Source: Geovibrio thiophilus (GTDB lineage: Bacteria; Chrysiogenota; Deferribacteres; Deferribacterales; Geovibrionaceae). Taken from it: a DNA stretch of 64,000 bases. A program made the translations under genes and the position numbers. Shown here piece by piece: positions 36,149 through 61,739 of the stretch (positions within the stretch are counted from its first letter, which is position 1; every line of letters starts with the position of its first letter). The stretch covers positions 1,798,001 to 1,862,000 of the forward strand of contig NZ_CP035108.1 in assembly GCF_004087915.1 (NCBI RefSeq). Reading direction: 5' to 3'. Under the pieces are notes generated by a model that was not told the origin of the DNA, did not search any database, and saw nothing but the letters and a program-made list of their open reading frames with translations.

Positions 36149-36211
36149 ATCTTTCTCCTGTATCAGTGTTTATGCGGGATACCCCGCCGTGGTTAACATT
36201 TTAATAACTGA

Positions 36212-36300
36212 AATCCGCACATCCTGTCGGATTGCCACACACGCTTACGCCGCAGTAAATGCGGCTTCGCTCCGCACGGCGCAGTTCCATCCATGGAACT
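36212..36300 (-). repeat. Three-hairpin structured repeat, copy A, directly after the aminotransferase stop
   Basis: Hairpins: AATCCG (36212-36217) with CGGATT (36228-36233); GCCGCA (36249-36254) with TGCGGC (36260-36265); AGTTCCAT (36283-36290) with ATGGAACT (36293-36300). The single-stranded parts (TTCGCTCCGCACGGCGC) are identical to copy B at 37988-38082, whereas the stems differ by paired changes. It begins 4 bp beyond the stop codon of the gene at 36305. Confidence 0.75.
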
Positions 36301-36304
36301 GTTC

Positions 36305-37648
36305 CTATTTCAACGTTTTGCGCACAGCAGATTCAAATATATCCATAGCCTGTTTAAGCTGTTCATCGGTGAGTACGAGGGGAGGGAGAAACCTCACCAC
36401 GTTGCCGAAGATCCCCGCGCCTATCACAAGCAGACCCTGCTTAAAGCATTCGGCGTTGATGGAGGATACAGCGTCCTTGTAAGGTTCCTTGGTCGCCGGA
36501 TCTTTCACAAACTCGATGCCTATCATGGCGCCCAGACCGCGCACATCGCCCATCTGTGGAAATTCTTTTTGCAGCGCTCTCGCTCTGTCCATGATGTAAG
36601 CGCCTATTTTCAGTGATTTTTCGCTGAGGTTCTGCTCCTCCATCATCCTGATGGAAGCAAGGGCAGCCTCGCACGCAACAGGGTTTCCGCCGTATGTGCC
36701 GCCTATTCCGCCTGCGCCCACCGAGTCCATAATCTCTTTTTTGCCGACCACTGCGGAAATAGGCATTCCGGAGCCAAGAGACTTTGCCATTGTCACGAGA
36801 TCAGGTTCTACGCCGAAATGCTCCACGGCAAACATTCTGCCTGTGCGGCAGAAGCCTGACTGAACCTCGTCCGCAATGAGAACTATGCCGTATTCGTCGC
36901 ATATTTCTCTCAGACCCTGCCAGTATCCCTTGGGAGGCACATTGAAGCCGCCCTCGCCCTGCACCGGTTCAAGGATAACCGCCGCTATATTCATGGGATT
37001 GACTTCGGAAACAAAGAAACGTCTGAAATAGTCAAGGTAAGCTCTGCACGCCTCCTCCTCGGAGGTGTTTATCTGCCCCCTGTAAACATTGGGGAACGGA
37101 ACCTTGTAAACCTCGGGAGCGAAAGGACCGAAGCCGTCTTTGTACGGCTTGACCTTGCTTGTGAGTGTCATCGTGAGGAGTGTTCTTCCGTGGAAGCCTG
37201 ATTCAAAGGCAACCACGCCTGTGCGCTTGGTATATGTCTTTGCTATTTTGATTGCGTTTTCCACAGCTTCAGCGCCGCTGTTTACAAACATCGCCTTCTT
37301 GGACGATTTACCCGGAGCTATCTGCGTGAGCTTCTCCGCAAGACGCACGTAAGGTTCGTACATGCTGACCATGAAGCAGGAGTGCAGGAGTTTGTCCGCC
37401 TGATCCTTTATTGCTTTTACAACCTCATCAGGGCAGTGTCCGCAGGAGGTAACGCCTATGCCTGCGTAGAAGTCAAGATATGTATTGCCGTCCGTGTCCT
37501 CTATGACTGCGCCCTTAGCCTGCTTCACAACCAAAGGGAAGGTGCATGATATTCCTGCTGCCACGTATGCGGCTTTGTCATCGATTATCTTTTTGGTGCG
37601 CTCGCTCTGGTGTGTGCTTATATTTGCCAATTCCTTTCCGTTTAACAT
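36305..37648 (-). CDS. gabT: Class III omega-aminotransferase, 4-aminobutyrate aminotransferase-like (GabT)
   Basis: A 447-residue PLP enzyme that moves the amino group of an omega-amino acid to 2-oxoglutarate, giving an aldehyde such as succinate semialdehyde. Motifs: FVNSGAEAVENAIKIA, ESGFHGRTLLTMTLT, EPVQGEGGFNVPP, IADEVQSGFCRTG (D260) and PLP lysine K289 in MAKSLGSGMP. These match GabT; 5-aminovalerate, beta-alanine or putrescine-derived substrates remain possible. A sigma-54 promoter at 37689-37704 and three palindromic sites at 37768-37824 lie upstream. The product aldehyde would be oxidised by the dehydrogenase encoded upstream. Confidence 0.88.
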   Translation of the reverse strand: MLNGKELANISTHQSERTKKIIDDKAAYVAAGISCTFPLVVKQAKGAVIEDTDGNTYLDFYAGIGVTSCGHCPDEVVKAIKDQADKLLHSCFMVSMYEPYVRLAEKLTQIAPGKSSKKAMFVNSGAEAVENAIKIAKTYTKRTGVVAFESGFHGRTLLTMTLTSKVKPYKDGFGPFAPEVYKVPFPNVYRGQINTSEEEACRAYLDYFRRFFVSEVNPMNIAAVILEPVQGEGGFNVPPKGYWQGLREICDEYGIVLIADEVQSGFCRTGRMFAVEHFGVEPDLVTMAKSLGSGMPISAVVGKKEIMDSVGAGGIGGTYGGNPVACEAALASIRMMEEQNLSEKSLKIGAYIMDRARALQKEFPQMGDVRGLGAMIGIEFVKDPATKEPYKDAVSSINAECFKQGLLVIGAGIFGNVVRFLPPLVLTDEQLKQAMDIFESAVRKTLK

Positions 37649-37688
37649 CTGAAACAGCCTCCGGATTCAAAAATGTTTTAAAGTTATG

Positions 37689-37704
37689 AGCAACGGTTGT
37701 GCCA
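37689..37704 (-). promoter_or_regulatory. Sigma-54 (-24/-12) promoter of the aminotransferase gene
   Basis: On the - strand TGGCACAACCGTTGCT, a full match to the TGGCAC-N5-TTGCW consensus with the required 10 nt between GG and GC. The expected transcript start is about 30 nt before the ATG at 37648. Confidence 0.85.
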
Positions 37705-37767
37705 CAGATCTTTTTTATCTGACAAATAAGCGAAAACAGCCTGAATAAGGACTATGCGTATATACGG

Positions 37768-37824
37768 GTTAACTTTGGTTTACATGAGCGTCAACCAGAG
37801 GCTACAGGGTCAACCATGGTTTAC
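37768..37824 (-). promoter_or_regulatory. Three 16-bp palindromic sites, probable enhancer for the NtrC-type regulator
   Basis: GTTAACTTTGGTTTAC (37768-37783), GTCAACCAGAGGCTAC (37790-37805) and GTCAACCATGGTTTAC (37809-37824) share the pattern GTYAAC-N4-GKYTAC and are spaced 22 and 19 bp, about two helical turns. They lie 64-135 bp upstream of the sigma-54 promoter, the usual place for activator sites. Binding by the regulator encoded at 39576-40979 is inferred. Confidence 0.65.
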
Positions 37825-37837
37825 TCCAAAATAAAAA

Positions 37838-37864
37838 GCCCGCAGCACGGTAGAAACTGCGGGC
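37838..37864 (-). terminator. Terminator downstream of the aldehyde dehydrogenase gene
   Basis: GCCCGCAG (37838-37845) with CTGCGGGC (37857-37864), loop 11 nt. Read on the - strand the stem is followed by TTTTTATTTT. It lies 225 bp after the stop, beyond the two repeat elements. Confidence 0.75.
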
Positions 37865-37897
37865 AGGGGAAACTTAACTGCAGTCATTAAACTCGTT

Positions 37898-37978
37898 AGA
37901 GACTGCTTCGTCGCTTATGCTCCTCGCAGTGACGTAAACTGCTGTCATTGCGAACCCTGAAAGAGTGAAGCAATCTCT
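37898..37978. repeat. Inverted-repeat element with CATTGCGA / GAAGCAATCTC-type arms
   Basis: AGAGACTGCTTC (37898-37909) faces GAAGCAATCTCT (37967-37978), and CTCGCAGTGACG (37923-37934) faces TGTCATTGCGA (37943-37953). The arms resemble the dispersed TCATTGCGAG...GAAGCAATCT repeats seen in many bacterial genomes. Paired head to head they would form one long imperfect hairpin. Confidence 0.6.
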
Positions 37979-37987
37979 GTCTTTACA

Positions 37988-38082
37988 ATCCAAAATTTAC
38001 CATCCTTGGAAATTTTGGATACACGCTCACGCCGTGATAAACACGGCTTCGCTCCGCACGGCGCAACTCCATCCATGGAGTT
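37988..38082 (-). repeat. Three-hairpin structured repeat, copy B, directly after the aldehyde dehydrogenase stop
   Basis: Hairpins: ATCCAAAATTT (37988-37998) with AAATTTTGGAT (38010-38020); GCCGTG (38031-38036) with CACGGC (38042-38047); AACTCCAT (38065-38072) with ATGGAGTT (38075-38082). Compared with copy A, the stems change on both sides (for example GCCGCA/TGCGGC to GCCGTG/CACGGC) and the linkers stay the same. It lies 6 bp beyond the stop codon at 38089. Confidence 0.75.
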
Positions 38083-38088
38083 GCATGG

Positions 38089-39516
38089 TTAATTTCTGTT
38101 AATCATCACCATCTTAATCGTCATCATGTCTTCCATGGCGAACTTAACGCCCTCTCTGCCGAGACCGGAGAGCTTGTTGCCGCCGTAGGGGAGATGATCG
38201 ACCCTGAAAGTGGATGTATCGTTTATCATCACGCCGCCGACATCAAGTTCATCAACGGCTTTCATCGCTTTGTTTATATCTGTCGTGTATATACCCGCCT
38301 GAAGTCCGAAATCGGAATCATTCACTCTCGCCAGAGCATCATCAAAATCATCATAAGCCACTATGGACACCACTGGAGCAAAGGTTTCCATGCACATTAC
38401 CTTCATCTCCTCAGTAACGTTTGTAAGCACCGTTGGAAGATAAACCATGCCTTCCGCCCTGCCGCCTGCGGCAATAACAGCGCCCTGAGCTTCAGCCTCC
38501 TTCACCCATGAGTCGATACGGTTAAGCTCTTTTGAGTCTATCATGGGTCCGACATCACACGCCTTATCCATAGGATCGCCGATTTTCAGCGCTTTCGTCT
38601 TTTCCACAAACAGCTCAGTGAACCTGTCCACGCATTTGCTGTTAACGTATATCCTCTGGAGGGAGATGCACACCTGACCGGAGTTTGAAAAAGCGCTCAC
38701 AACGCATCTGGCGGCGGTTTTTTCAAGATCGGCATCGGGCTCAATGATCGTAGCCGAGTTGTTACCGAGTTCCAGCGTAACCTTCTTGATCCCTGCCTTG
38801 CGCATTATCTGATCCCCTACCCCGGGAGAACCGGTGAAGGTGATTTTCTTGGTTTTAGGGCTTATAACTATTGTGTCTCCCACTGTTGCGCCTGAACCTA
38901 TAACAACATTAAGCACCCCTGCAGGGAGCCCTGCTTTCTCCATTATTTCAGCGAGAATTATGGACGAAAGCGGTGTGGATGAGGCAGGCTTCAGCACAAC
39001 GGTATTTCCGGCAGCGATTGCAGGGGCAACCTTATGAGCCACAAGGTTAAGAGGGAAGTTGAAGGGGGTTATGGCGCCGATTACGCCCACAGGCTCACGC
39101 AGGAAATAGCCGACGCGGTTTTCACCGAACTTGCTGGCATCAATCTGAATTGTTTCACCGTGGATGTGTTTTGTCTCTTCCGACGCGAACTTGAATGTCT
39201 CCGCACTGCGCAGTACCTCGTTCATGGAGAACTTCCACGCCTTACCCGCCTCAAGGCAGATTATCTCGGTTATTTCATCCGCACGGTCAAGTATACCCTG
39301 CGCCGTCTTCTCCAATATTTCCGAGCGTTTGTGTGCGGGCATCCTGCGAAATGATCTGAATGCCGCTTCCGCCGCGTCTATAGCCTCGTCAGTGAGCGCT
39401 TCATCCGCCTGCGGAACATAGGCGAAGATTTCGCCGCTGAATTTATTTTTTACTTCGAGTTCCTTACCCGTTTCCACCCATTTGCCGTTTATGAGTGTTC
39501 TGTAATGCTTAGGCAT
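38089..39516 (-). CDS. NAD(P)-dependent aldehyde dehydrogenase, semialdehyde dehydrogenase-like
   Basis: A 475-residue aldehyde dehydrogenase with the catalytic cysteine C283 (SNSGQVCISLQRIYV), the general base E249 (KVTLELGNNSATII), the cofactor segment GVIGAITPFNFPLNLVAHK (19 residues) and GSPGVGDQIMRKAG. It is closest in style to lactaldehyde, phosphonoacetaldehyde and succinate-semialdehyde dehydrogenases. I chose ATG 39516 (MPKHYRTLINGKW), 32 nt after the predicted transcript start. A sigma-54 promoter (39558-39573) lies between it and the regulator gene. It would oxidise the aldehyde made by the nearby aminotransferase to a carboxylate. Confidence 0.88.
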   Translation of the reverse strand: MPKHYRTLINGKWVETGKELEVKNKFSGEIFAYVPQADEALTDEAIDAAEAAFRSFRRMPAHKRSEILEKTAQGILDRADEITEIICLEAGKAWKFSMNEVLRSAETFKFASEETKHIHGETIQIDASKFGENRVGYFLREPVGVIGAITPFNFPLNLVAHKVAPAIAAGNTVVLKPASSTPLSSIILAEIMEKAGLPAGVLNVVIGSGATVGDTIVISPKTKKITFTGSPGVGDQIMRKAGIKKVTLELGNNSATIIEPDADLEKTAARCVVSAFSNSGQVCISLQRIYVNSKCVDRFTELFVEKTKALKIGDPMDKACDVGPMIDSKELNRIDSWVKEAEAQGAVIAAGGRAEGMVYLPTVLTNVTEEMKVMCMETFAPVVSIVAYDDFDDALARVNDSDFGLQAGIYTTDINKAMKAVDELDVGGVMINDTSTFRVDHLPYGGNKLSGLGREGVKFAMEDMMTIKMVMINRN

Positions 39517-39557
39517 TTTTTCACCTCTCACGCTGTTTAACTTACAGCATTGTCAGG

Positions 39558-56305: not shown

Positions 56306-59300
56306 TTTCTAAGCTGCCTGTGCGGCAGTGAACGCCAGTATCAAGGCTTGTCACCATCCGTATCGTTTCTAAGCTGCCTGTGCGGCAGTGAACGTGCCCT
56401 CTGTGGTGGACGTAATAACATCAAATTTCTAAGCTGCCTGTGCGGCAGTGAACTCGCAAGAGATATAGCCTCTGCCATTGTGCGAATTTCTAAGCTGCCT
56501 GTGCGGCAGTGAACAGATGTGGTGAAATAGAAGCTCTCCGTATACATTTCTAAGCTGCCTGTGCGGCAGTGAACAAGGCAGCCAATATATCACGTTCGAT
56601 ATTCATTTTCTAAGCTGCCTGTGCGGCAGTGAACGCTGTCACTTCCCTTTACTGCGGCCGCTTTCATTTCTAAGCTGCCTGTGCGGCAGTGAACGCGGAT
56701 GCTATCAGCGCACAGCATATAGGAGTTTTCTAAGCTGCCTGTGCGGCAGTGAACGTAGAACGAGCTTGATCTGAAACCGAGGTGCATTTCTAAGCTGCCT
56801 GTGCGGCAGTGAACATCAATTTTAGATTCAACATACTGAACTTTAGTTTCTAAGCTGCCTGTGCGGCAGTGAACCGAATGGTAAAAACCGGGGAGATAGA
56901 GGGGTTTTTCTAAGCTGCCTGTGCGGCAGTGAACAAATGCTTGAAGTTCTTACGGAAACCCTCAAATTTCTAAGCTGCCTGTGCGGCAGTGAACGGACTT
57001 TTTAAGTCCGCCAGATTCAAGGTTAATTTCTAAGCTGCCTGTGCGGCAGTGAACGCAACGGGGGCTTGCCCTGCCCGAATGGACAGTTTCTAAGCTGCCT
57101 GTGCGGCAGTGAACTTATACTGGCGGCGTGAACCGCCAAAAAATTATTTCTAAGCTGCCTGTGCGGCAGTGAACGCCATTCCGCATCAATGACAAAAAAC
57201 CCGCATTTTCTAAGCTGCCTGTGCGGCAGTGAACCTGGCGGAGAAGAGGTTCTCGCCCGCTCAAATTTTCTAAGCTGCCTGTGCGGCAGTGAACGGTAAA
57301 CAGGTATAGTTATGAGGATTTTTTCATTTCTAAGCTGCCTGTGCGGCAGTGAACTACGGGCTCATTGAGTCGCCCCGAACTTTGAATTTCTAAGCTGCCT
57401 GTGCGGCAGTGAACACCACAAACAACACATTCCGCCATTTTTCACCTTTCTAAGCTGCCTGTGCGGCAGTGAACATATGCTCCGTGGGGTTGAAAGCATC
57501 CTGAAATTTCTAAGCTGCCTGTGCGGCAGTGAACCTTGTCGAAATTAGCGCCCGCTTCTTTAAGCATTTCTAAGCTGCCTGTGCGGCAGTGAACTCTGGC
57601 GGACTTAAAAAGTCCGCATCGTTGAGTTTCTAAGCTGCCTGTGCGGCAGTGAACATGGGCAGATGCTCCAGTTACAGGCGTTACAATTTCTAAGCTGCCT
57701 GTGCGGCAGTGAACCCGTGCCGTCTCTCCTGCGCTTTCTCTCCAGTTTTCTAAGCTGCCTGTGCGGCAGTGAACTCAGTAATTCAGCTTATGCTGTGAGC
57801 TATAAGTTTCTAAGCTGCCTGTGCGGCAGTGAACCTGTAAAGAAAGAAGTCAGAAAAATTGACAAATTTCTAAGCTGCCTGTGCGGCAGTGAACTGTGAA
57901 GCATATCTATTTGCAAGTGCTGTGTCTTTCTAAGCTGCCTGTGCGGCAGTGAACAGAAACCGGCTGCCTCCCCTGTGTACACTCAGTTTCTAAGCTGCCT
58001 GTGAGGCAGTGAACATATCCACGGCGGGTTGTTTCCGGCGGGTTTTTTTCTAAGCTGCCTGTGCGGCAGTGAACTCGGGACAATACAGGTCTGTCCTGAT
58101 TCTTGATTTCTAAGCTGCCTGTGCGGCAGTGAACGCTCAAGCGCATCTTCTTCCGGTTCTTCCTCCTTTCTAAGCTGCCTGTGCGGCAGTGAACGACAGA
58201 CTTGAAGAAAGGATGCTGGAGATGCTTTTCTAAGCTGCCTGTGCGGCAGTGAACATGCGGCAATGCCTGTTCAGAGAAGTTATTAATTTCTAAGCTGCCT
58301 GTGCGGCAGTGAACGAAATGATTTCGTGGTATATCGATCAAGAAACTTTCTAAGCTGCCTGTGCGGCAGTGAACAAAACGCAACGGTGTATATTTATGAC
58401 TCTCTTTTTCTAAGCTGCCTGTGCGGCAGTGAACGTACGCAATACCTTATTTGCATATCTGCTTTATTTCTAAGCTGCCTGTGCGGCAGTGAACTGGGGA
58501 TCGCAAACACCATAACCGTTACATACTTTCTAAGCTGCCTGTGCGGCAGTGAACCGTGCATACATGCACAGTCGCCGCAAACTGATTTTCTAAGCTGCCT
58601 GTGCGGCAGTGAACGAACAGCGAATAACGGGATCGACAGATACGCATTTCTAAGCTGCCTGTGCGGCAGTGAACTCGTAAGAGGCTTTAACGGGCTTGAC
58701 GAGAACTTTCTAAGCTGCCTGTGCGGCAGTGAACAACACTTTCTCCGGGCGAAAGCTCTGGAATGTTTTCTAAGCTGCCTGTGCGGCAGTGAACATGCAA
58801 TTAAGCGGGTTCTGGCAACATCACGGTTTCTAAGCTGCCTGTGCGGCAGTGAACTTATGTACGTTATGACAAATCAGCAGCTTGAATTTCTAAGCTGCCT
58901 GTGCGGCAGTGAACGAGGAATACGAAGGAACCAGCCCCATAGCAGATTTCTAAGCTGCCTGTGCGGCAGTGAACTCAACGTTTGCCCAGACATCATCAAA
59001 GCCAACTTTCTAAGCTGCCTGTGCGGCAGTGAACCTATGTATGATCCACCTAGCACCGCCGCTAACGTTTCTAAGCTGCCTGTGCGGCAGTGAACAGAAG
59101 GCGCACGCATAAGCGAGATAAGCACAGTTTCTAAGCTGCCTGTGCGGCAGTGAACGGTTATGCCTGTTAAAACCGGTCCTGCATTAATTTCTAAGCTGCC
59201 TGTGCGGCAGTGAACTTATATTTATTTTATAAGTATATTCGCTAATTTTTCTAAGCTGCCTGTGCGGCAGTGAACATTTATCGTGGAAAATTTCCCCGAT

Positions 59301-61739
59301 GCGAACGTTTCTAAGCTGCCTGTGCGGCAGTGAACTAAATATCTGGTTTTCTGGCTCTCAACCGGGCTTTCTAAGCTGCCTGTGCGGCAGTGAACGCCGC
59401 TTTTCTCGTCACTCGCTTGTGCGTTTTTTTCTAAGCTGCCTGTGCGGCAGTGAACCGCATACAGGTTGAATTTGAGTATGAGGACATTTTCTAAGCTGCC
59501 TGTGCGGCAGTGAACTTACTCGTTCTAATGAAACAGCTAAGTGTTTTTTTCTAAGCTGCCTGTGCGGCAGTGAACGCATACCTATTATAAAAACACCATT
59601 ATCTTCATTTCTAAGCTGCCTGTGCGGCAGTGAACGATAAGTCTGCACCAACATTCTATATTGTTCAGTTTCTAAGCTGCCTGTGCGGCAGTGAACATGC
59701 AGCATATCAGTGCTACGATAACAGTTACATTTCTAAGCTGCCTGTGCGGCAGTGAACGAAAAGAAAACTTACCAAAAACAGCCAAATTATTTCTAAGCTG
59801 CCTGTGCGGCAGTGAACGTCAATGATGTTAAATGTAATCATGGACGAAATTTCTAAGCTGCCTGTGCGGCAGTGAACGAGTACAATGAGAAAGATTTTTT
59901 TGGTTATTATTTCTAAGCTGCCTGTGCGGCAGTGAACTCGGCACGATAGCTGAGGCTGTGGCGCAGAAATTTCTAAGCTGCCTGTGCGGCAGTGAACACG
60001 GGAACTTTACCGATGTGTGCGTTATTTCATTTCTAAGCTGCCTGTGCGGCAGTGAACACTAAGTTTCTTGGGAATTTGGGGTCAAACGTTTTCTAAGCTG
60101 CCTGTGCGGCAGTGAACTTGCGAAGCTCTGTAAATCCCTGCCTGAGTGCTTTCTAAGCTGCCTGTGCGGCAGTGAACCGGTTCAGCCATGCTGATTATCC
60201 CGCTTCGGCGGTTTCTAAGCTGCCTGTGCGGCAGTGAACTTTTCAAAACCTGATGATGAAACATATCTCAATTTCTAAGCTGCCTGTGCGGCAGTGAACA
60301 ACGCAAGCTTAAAGCAGTATCAGAAGCTACATTTCTAAGCTGCCTGTGCGGCAGTGAACAACGCAAGCTTAAAGCAGTATCAGAAGCTACATTTCTAAGC
60401 TGCCTGTGCGGCAGTGAACTTTTCGCAGACCTGAAAGCACTTTGTGAGACATTTCTAAGCTGCCTGTGCGGCAGTGAACATCCCCACCGCTGATCGCTCT
60501 GATGAGCAAAATTTCTAAGCTGCCTGTGCGGCAGTGAACGAAAAGATTCTTTGTTTTCAGATATGTTCCGATTTCTAAGCTGCCTGTGCGGCAGTGAACT
60601 GTCAGCCGGTTTATGAACGCTGGCTGTTTGATTTCTAAGCTGCCTGTGCGGCAGTGAACGTGTTGGAGTGTGCCATATAGCCTGACGTGTTTTTCTAAGC
60701 TGCCTGTGCGGCAGTGAACATGAACATGGTTGTGAACGGCAGTATTGCAGCTTTCTAAGCTGCCTGTGCGGCAGTGAACCCCTGATGTCGATGGGTATGC
60801 AGACGCTCACGTTTCTAAGCTGCCTGTGCGGCAGTGAACAGTGATGAATACATAGATCACTGGTGGGGATGTTTCTAAGCTGCCTGTGCGGCAGTGAACA
60901 GAACCGAGCCTTTAACAACCCCATCCGCATCTTTCTAAGCTGCCTGTGCGGCAGTGAACGAGGGCGGGGCTTTTATGTGAGCTCCGGCGCGTTTCTAAGC
61001 TGCCTGTGCGGCAGTGAACTCTGCGGAAGCAGAGTAAGCACCTTCCCCAACTTTCTAAGCTGCCTGTGCGGCAGTGAACAAGAGAATGTTATCAGAACTG
61101 AAATTGAGATATTTCTAAGCTGCCTGTGCGGCAGTGAACGTTGAGGTCTGAAAGGTGAGGTGAGTAGCATATTTCTAAGCTGCCTGTGCGGCAGTGAACA
61201 TGGTACAGGTTTATCTGAAGAAGAAGTTTTATTTCTAAGCTGCCTGTGCGGCAGTGAACAATGGTTCGGAAAGGTTCGGAACAGTTTTAAATTTCTAAGC
61301 TGCCTGTGCGGCAGTGAACGACCGCCGCATGTGGGCTTATTTAGCACTTTGTTTCTAAGCTGCCTGTGCGGCAGTGAACAAGTGAATTTAATATCATCTA
61401 CGGTTTTTAAATTTCTAAGCTGCCTGTGCGGCAGTGAACACATCAAGAAACTGGTGAACGGCTCCGTTATCTTTCTAAGCTGCCTGTGCGGCAGTGAACT
61501 TTACGCTTTTTACCGTGAATGCGTTGACGGTTTTCTAAGCTGCCTGTGCGGCAGTGAACTTACCCTTCCTGTTAGCGAGGGTGTCAATGAATTTCTAAGC
61601 TGCCTGTGCGGCAGTGAACCATCGAAAATCCCGGCGGCGATACATGGTACTTTTCTAAGCTGCCTGTGCGGCAGTGAACGATCTGCTAATATAATATCAT
61701 ATTTTTTATCTTTTCTAAGCTGCCTGTGCGGCAGTGAAC
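56306..61739 (-). CRISPR. Type I-F CRISPR array, 91 repeats and 90 spacers
   Basis: The 28-nt repeat, read on the - strand, is GTTCACTGCCGCACAGGCAG followed by CTTAGAAA, the I-F type with the CTGCC/GGCAG stem cut by Csy4. By position I count 91 repeats with a nearly constant 60-bp period. Spacers are 32 nt, apart from 33-nt ones starting at 56454, 59035, 59636 and 59697 and one of 34 nt starting at 60178. One repeat (57987-58014) has a C-to-A change at 58004 in the loop. Spacers at 60300-60331 and 60360-60391 are identical. The leader side is the high-coordinate end, next to csy4, so the newest spacers are near 61.7 kb. Confidence 0.97.

Follow-up and report, generated by a model that had tools for sequence, protein, structure and literature searches.

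The closest described systems are the sRNAs CsrB/CsrC and RsmX/Y/Z, single stand-alone genes of proteobacteria whose transcripts act as CsrA sponges: each RNA carries several GGA hairpins with CAGGA(U/A/C)G and ANGGAN loops and sequesters CsrA dimers. By NMR, the high-affinity CsrA/RsmE site was defined as a hexaloop ANGGAX placed directly on a stem (PMC4005645), and the CsrB repeat reads CAGGA(U/A/C)G, with a bridging range of 10–63 nt reported for pairs of CsrA sites and stems of four or fewer base pairs in most SELEX hairpins (PMC7652899). In bacteria with FliW, such as Bacillus subtilis, the 5′ leader of the flagellin gene hag combines a GGA hairpin with a GGA in the ribosome site. FliW is a protein antagonist of CsrA, and we know of no RNA antagonists of CsrA in FliW bacteria. 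Furthermore, the TwoAYGGAY RNA motif consists of two hairpins with an AYGGAY-type loop. This motif was reported from human gut, gamma-Proteobacteria and Clostridiales (PMC2864571). The TAACTGA repeats of Beggiatoaceae comprise some 170 tandem sets in intergenic regions and were proposed to act post-transcriptionally, but CsrA was considered unlikely because GGA motifs are missing (PMC4679880). At the DNA level, REP/BIME/REPIN elements with RAYT are high-copy extragenic palindromes that occur in tandem or composite form and exchange modules.

We analyzed a window of 64,000 nucleotides from Geovibrio thiophilus (1,798,001–1,862,000 of a single-contig genome of 2,997,552 bp), in which two copies of a three-hairpin repeat, A and B, had been noticed behind two enzyme genes. 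Both copies were present and belong to an intergenic family of at least 183 copies at 78 loci of the 3.0-Mb genome, where they stand in tandem arrays of 1–7. We consider it probable that this is a dispersed, tandemly amplifying, mRNA-borne repeat with two predicted CsrA-binding hairpins per unit that acts as a sink and/or a cis element. It would thus resemble CsrB/CsrC and RsmX/Y/Z in its GGA hairpins and in the predicted sequestration of CsrA dimers, but differs from them in consisting of short units behind protein genes, in its conserved core without GGA and in a host that has fliW. The two-hairpin layout with AYGGAY-type loops is shared with TwoAYGGAY, a likeness by name and description only, and the Rfam scan gave no TwoAYGGAY match at the repeats among the families of the release used. 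Indeed, Rfam yielded no match for the repeat in the window at gathering thresholds, none up to E 10 around the copies and none in five array loci, and a known Rfam RNA, including the CsrB/CsrC/RsmXYZ families, was therefore rejected for want of a covariance-model match. The TAACTGA repeats are alike as intergenic tandem sets, whereas the GGA that they lack is the conserved part here; a TAACTGA-type repeat was set aside, CsrA having been judged unlikely for those repeats (PMC4679880). Like REP/BIME/REPIN elements, the repeat is a high-copy extragenic palindrome, yet it is unlike them in its unit of ~96 nt with three hairpins, in its same-direction arrays and in the protein-binding consensus of its loops. 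Searches of the open-access literature turned up neither a description of CsrA-site repeats nor one for this genus. The best reading is that the repeat is not a known family.

The coordinates of copies A and B and of their upstream genes are collected in Table 1. The earlier note had located both copies well, with ends that fell 2–5 nt short of the covariance-model extents, and had placed their starts 4–6 bp behind stop codons; they do start just behind them, with gaps of 2 nt (aminotransferase gene to copy A) and 4 nt (aldehyde dehydrogenase gene to copy B). In the window, the RNA strand of the repeat is the minus strand and runs in the same direction as the upstream gene, so that the letters of the supposed CATCC loop read GGAUG in the RNA. 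On this strand, a unit is composed of hairpin H1 (7-bp stem, six-base loop), a conserved core (CGCCGUGCGNAGCGAAG 5′ and CGCGAGCGUGU 3′ of H2) that contains the 6-bp hairpin H2 (loop e.g. UUUAC), and hairpin H3 (11-bp stem, loop ACAGGAUGU or CCAUGGAUGG). The H2 loop of copy A is without GGA. The third stem, thought to differ completely between the copies, turned out to be one 11-bp hairpin, common to both, that can carry either of two interchangeable loops; copy A has ACAGGAUGU and copy B CCAAGGAUGG. Copies A and B also occupy the same places in a congener (G004).

Table 1. Positions in the window of repeat copies A and B, their parts and the genes upstream of them
Feature	Position	Strand	Evidence
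Copy A, whole unit (H1-core-H2-core-H3)	36207..36302	-	covariance-model match 101.6 bits, E 9.7e-18
Copy A, hairpin H1, CAGUUCC[AUGGAU]GGAACUG, hexaloop ANGGAN, GGA 36290-36292	36282..36302	-	sequence, fold, loop profile
Copy A, conserved core CGCCGUGCGNAGCGAAG ... CGYRAGCGUGU around H2 (36249-36265)	36239..36281	-	
Copy A, hairpin H3, loop ACAGGAUGU (CsrB-repeat type), GGA 36222-36224	36207..36238	-	sequence, fold
Class-III aminotransferase gene (447 aa), upstream of copy A	36305..37648	-	Aminotran_3, E 1.9e-132
Copy B, whole unit	37988..38084	-	covariance-model match 92.4 bits, E 6.5e-16
Copy B, hairpin H1, CAACUCC[AUGGAU]GGAGUUG, GGA 38072-38074	38064..38084	-	sequence, fold
Copy B, conserved core around H2 (38031-38047)	38021..38063	-	
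Copy B, hairpin H3, alternative loop type CCAAGGAUGG, GGA 38003-38005	37988..38020	-	sequence, fold
Aldehyde dehydrogenase gene (480 aa), upstream of copy B	38089..39531	-	Aldedh, E 3.6e-165

Two further elements lie near copy B. A second interspersed repeat, GAGATTGCTTCACCCTTTCAGGGTTCGCAATGACG, and its relatives (TCATTGCGAGGAGCGAAGCGAC...) flank it at ~37905–37985 of the window; repeats of the GAGATTGCTTCACCCTTTCAGGGTTCGCAATGACG type form the spacer of many tandem units, being found in the linkers of many arrays (e.g. L034, L018). Between the aminotransferase and aldehyde dehydrogenase genes, at ~37837–37865, we noted a G+C-rich inverted repeat (GCCCGCAG...CTGCGGGC), possibly a terminator or a second hairpin element.

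The family proved to be far larger than the pair first described. Copy A as BLAST query gave 107 matches in its own genome. A covariance model of 96 positions (R1), built from 26 non-redundant copies, returned at least 150 matches in a search of the genome and 183 at E ≤ 0.001 in 491 kb of stretches around the copies; 181 of these 183 were grouped into the 78 arrays of 1–7 units used for analysis. The covariance-model search of relatives that had been proposed likewise uncovered further copies, 144 and 123 in two genomes of the same genus, and all three copy numbers are lower bounds. Draft contigs of the congener G004 (C2, C4, C6, C9, C13, C14 and C26, first bases) break at arrays, so draft-based copy numbers are underestimates. 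In several arrays (L025 3086–3365, L018, L043 and others), later units consist of core, H2 and H3 only, and array growth is thus possible with one GGA hairpin per unit. Carriage by phages or plasmids was rejected for lack of any match to the repeat in phage and plasmid collections; the exact core occurred in only four viral contigs. Among the matches listed in a GTDB pattern scan, one Deferribacterales genome had several hits, and the single hits in many phyla are probably due to chance.

The compensatory stem changes described for A and B are real, 22 of 30 pairs being changed on both sides among the 26 non-redundant copies. In these copies, 97.1% of cells were paired compared with 78.6% in shuffles (0 of 500 as high), and pairing fell to 27–48% when the partner was slid by 1–3 columns. 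The 319 distinct stems, with ~2,860 pairs, are near-perfectly Watson–Crick, the exceptions being 36 G·U and 31 A·C. For a helix selected as RNA, G·U is expected to exceed A·C on the RNA strand; at 36 versus 31, this asymmetry is lacking and offers no proof of RNA-strand selection. At orthologous places in the congeners, entire H2 modules, and in many cases entire H1 modules as well, have been exchanged for others, and H3 stems are often retained. For instance, H2 of copy A reads CCGCAUUUACUGCGG in the window genome versus GCGGGUUUACCCCGC in G004, and the H3 loop type of copy B is switched between congeners. Module swaps of H2 with H3 stems kept suggest that copies exchange segments at their conserved core. 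Since such exchange, or DNA-level correction, could give rise to paired changes as well, covariation alone is an insufficient argument. The stems are paired as claimed, but with equal G·U and A·C exceptions and whole stem modules swapped, the step from covariation to structural selection was too strong: the stems by themselves do not show RNA as the selected form, and the argument for selection rests on the loops. The H2 stems make up a small recurring set of modules that are swapped between orthologous pairs, e.g. window 36207–36302 and L263 1600–1695.

The H1 hexaloop follows the pattern A-N-G-G-A-N, in which both N positions are free and the others nearly fixed (entropies of 0.29, 1.55, 0.30, 0.24, 0.00 and 1.53 bits, respectively, counting each of 133 arrays from three species once); the H1 stems of the 133 arrays comprise 49 different sequences. 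The H3 loop consists of CAGGA, a variable base (U 176, C 36, A 8, G 2) and G. GGA was found in the loop of H1 in 213/243 cases and of H3 in 264/290, compared with 0/298 for H2, so that the H2 loops of the same units provide a built-in control. Of 299 units, 181 carry C[ANGGAN]G exactly, with a stem of 4 bp or more beneath it, and 274 have CAGGANG or CANGGANG in H3; both sites were exact in 162. About 10% of the loops have lost GGA, and H1 is absent from many array units. The two GGA motifs of a unit lie at a linear distance of 68 nt, and the distance is shorter between units of short-period arrays. At the sequence level, the H1 and H3 loops match forms of the published high-affinity CsrA/RsmE loop and of the CsrB repeat, on stems longer than those of most SELEX hairpins. 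We thus predict, with some confidence, that CsrA binds the hairpins of the repeat.

Gene context, derived from simple longest-ORF genes, placed a co-directional gene upstream of 61 of 77 arrays, with its stop codon within 10 nt in 24 of these; about a third of all loci lie ≤10 nt from a stop codon. At tandem junctions of the window genome, 31 arrays were in sense and 12 in antisense orientation, with 29 at convergent and only 4 at divergent junctions. The two congeners showed 47 sense versus 8 antisense arrays at tandem junctions, 15 at convergent and 3 at divergent ones. Replication-strand bias was rejected as the cause of this orientation, being weak (19 leading versus 10 lagging in convergent junctions). 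The repeats are not confined to 3′ ends: 31 of 78 arrays are located between co-directional genes, and some end 18–27 nt ahead of the downstream start codon. Terminator-like sites occurred downstream of 13/153 arrays versus 2.1 expected. Intrinsic termination by the arrays themselves was dismissed, as only 2/155 end in a terminator-like site. A gap of 1–8 nt behind the stop codon leaves no room for a terminator in front of the array. The scarcity of terminator-like ends and the third of arrays lying close behind stop codons tend to speak against an independent sRNA gene of the CsrB/CsrC/RsmXYZ kind. Most likely, then, the arrays are transcribed as 3′ UTRs or intercistronic RNA. Among the options put forward in the earlier note, a protein-binding RNA at 3′ ends is the best supported, by the CsrA-site-like loops and the prevalence of co-directional upstream genes.

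The genome encodes CsrA at C1:452962–453120, and the adjoining gene was read as fliW from its sequence. Compared with solved CsrA/RsmE structures, L4 is aligned and the VHR(K/E)EI stretch with R44 is kept. Exactly one csrA is present in each of 12 family genomes. The leader of one flagellin gene carries CGGCAAGGAUGCCG ~30 nt ahead of the start and ACACGGAGG at the ribosome site, in analogy to hag; sites of the hag type are 5′ leaders of one gene, whereas the repeats are 3′ or intercistronic and genome-wide. Since this leader has the same hairpin, the CsrA of this organism very likely reads the same loop as in the repeats.

Diverged forms of the repeat were detected in all four genera of the family (Deferribacterales), of which Denitrovibrio is one. 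A genome of the Denitrovibrio group (G002) has six copies at E ≤ 0.001 with different stems; the GGA loop of H1 is kept in 4/5 copies read and the rest is decayed. In Denitrovibrio, copy number is low or the copies are decayed, and the repeat system thus appears dispensable there. In genus g3 (G006), a second model, R2, revealed a different scaffold of 131 nt, present in at least 147 copies; it has a C[ANGGAN]G hairpin at the start and UCAGGAUGA or CCAUGGAUGG at the end. In the g4 genomes, the copies number 5–22 and have diverged; either of their ends may carry CAGGAAG, CAGGAUG or CAUGGAUG. Across genera, scaffold and stems change and the loops persist, with the two loop types trading places between H1 and H3. 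A wide distribution was rejected: searched under stricter filters, the remaining phylum yielded R1 matches in just three genomes, each of them single and weak. These matches outside the family are in G041, G045 and G048 (family f7, genus g15; E 5e-5 to 5e-4).

A plausible mechanism can be outlined from these observations. Each unit would be transcribed within the mRNA of the gene in front, as 3′ UTR or intercistronic region. Its folded core would be flanked by two loops, the ANGGAN hexaloop of H1 and, in H3, either CAGGAUG or CANGGANG. This fold may bring H1 and H3 close together, and would matter because the linear GGA spacing slightly exceeds the 63-nt bridging limit. A CsrA dimer would then be expected to bind H1 and H3 within a unit or, alternatively, to span neighboring units of an array, from H3 to the following H1. 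With the units counted here, the genome would hold over 300 candidate CsrA sites. The transcript pool would buffer free CsrA, the size of the sink tracking the expression of the carrying genes, and CsrA availability could follow transcription. Locally, the sites could alter 3′-end stability or translation of the next gene, and the carrying genes would gain a CsrA-dependent 3′ end or operon junction.

Much of the genomic behavior would also suit a REP/BIME-like or MITE-like DNA repeat, whose hairpins and loops serve a mobilising enzyme and whose effect on RNA is incidental. The REP-like mobile element envisaged at the outset is borne out as far as very high copy number, dispersal, tandem arrangement and lineage-specific expansion are concerned; the near-perfect Watson–Crick stems with their balanced exceptions fit as well, and the swapping of stem modules between copies is expected of DNA-level exchange. 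However, no Y1/RAYT transposase gene (PF01797) was found in the genome in a search that detected its positive controls, which on present evidence rules out membership of a RAYT-driven REP family, and no GTAG-type tag was noted. Furthermore, strand preference tracks the upstream gene, loop variation falls exactly at the two H1 positions left free by CsrA and at the free position of CsrB in H3, and across genera the loops outlast the scaffold. We thus regard a purely DNA-borne repeat as improbable. The conservation of the loops also counts against a generic mRNA 3′-end stabiliser, in which hairpins behind the stop codon would block exonucleases and loop sequence would be irrelevant. Its appeal lies in the stable predicted folds and in the third of loci close to stop codons, but conservation within the hairpins is among the highest at the loop bases and the stems are free, H2 of the same units keeps no GGA loop, and many arrays lie between genes or just ahead of start codons, leaving this explanation very improbable.

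A narrower alternative accepts CsrA binding and limits it to a cis element for the junctions at which the arrays reside, without global titration, the sites being too few relative to CsrA or the transcripts too short-lived. Arrays that end 18–27 nt before a downstream start codon are reminiscent of CsrA-regulated leaders, and orthologous positions are conserved in the congeners. Set against this are the sheer number of units, the interchangeable stems, the lack of a single target class among the genes seen and an amplification that would seem to go well past the needs of local control; we judge an exclusively local role to be somewhat unlikely. Within the reading that we prefer, an mRNA-borne repeat with CsrA-binding hairpins, whether it forms a sink rather than acting only locally is a close call on which we stop just short of assent. 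With slightly more reserve, we offer the tentative proposal that an extragenic repeat which proliferated in the genus now serves as a CsrA sink, genome-wide and carried by mRNAs, beside the protein antagonist FliW.

If this holds, CsrA control would have an RNA arm in a bacterium with FliW, and a post-transcriptional regulon would have been built in a new way, by dispersal of a repeat. CsrA hairpins on the 3′ ends of ordinary messages would couple total transcription to free CsrA, and repetitive extragenic DNA would be seen to spread a specific RNA–protein binding site to many genes. The case is directly testable, as one small genome combines fliW, csrA, a CsrA-type flagellin leader and hundreds of CsrA-type hairpins. 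The window contains, in addition, a long CRISPR array on the minus strand (56306–61739), with 91 matches to Rfam CRISPR-DR4 (RF01317) at a period of ~60 bases.
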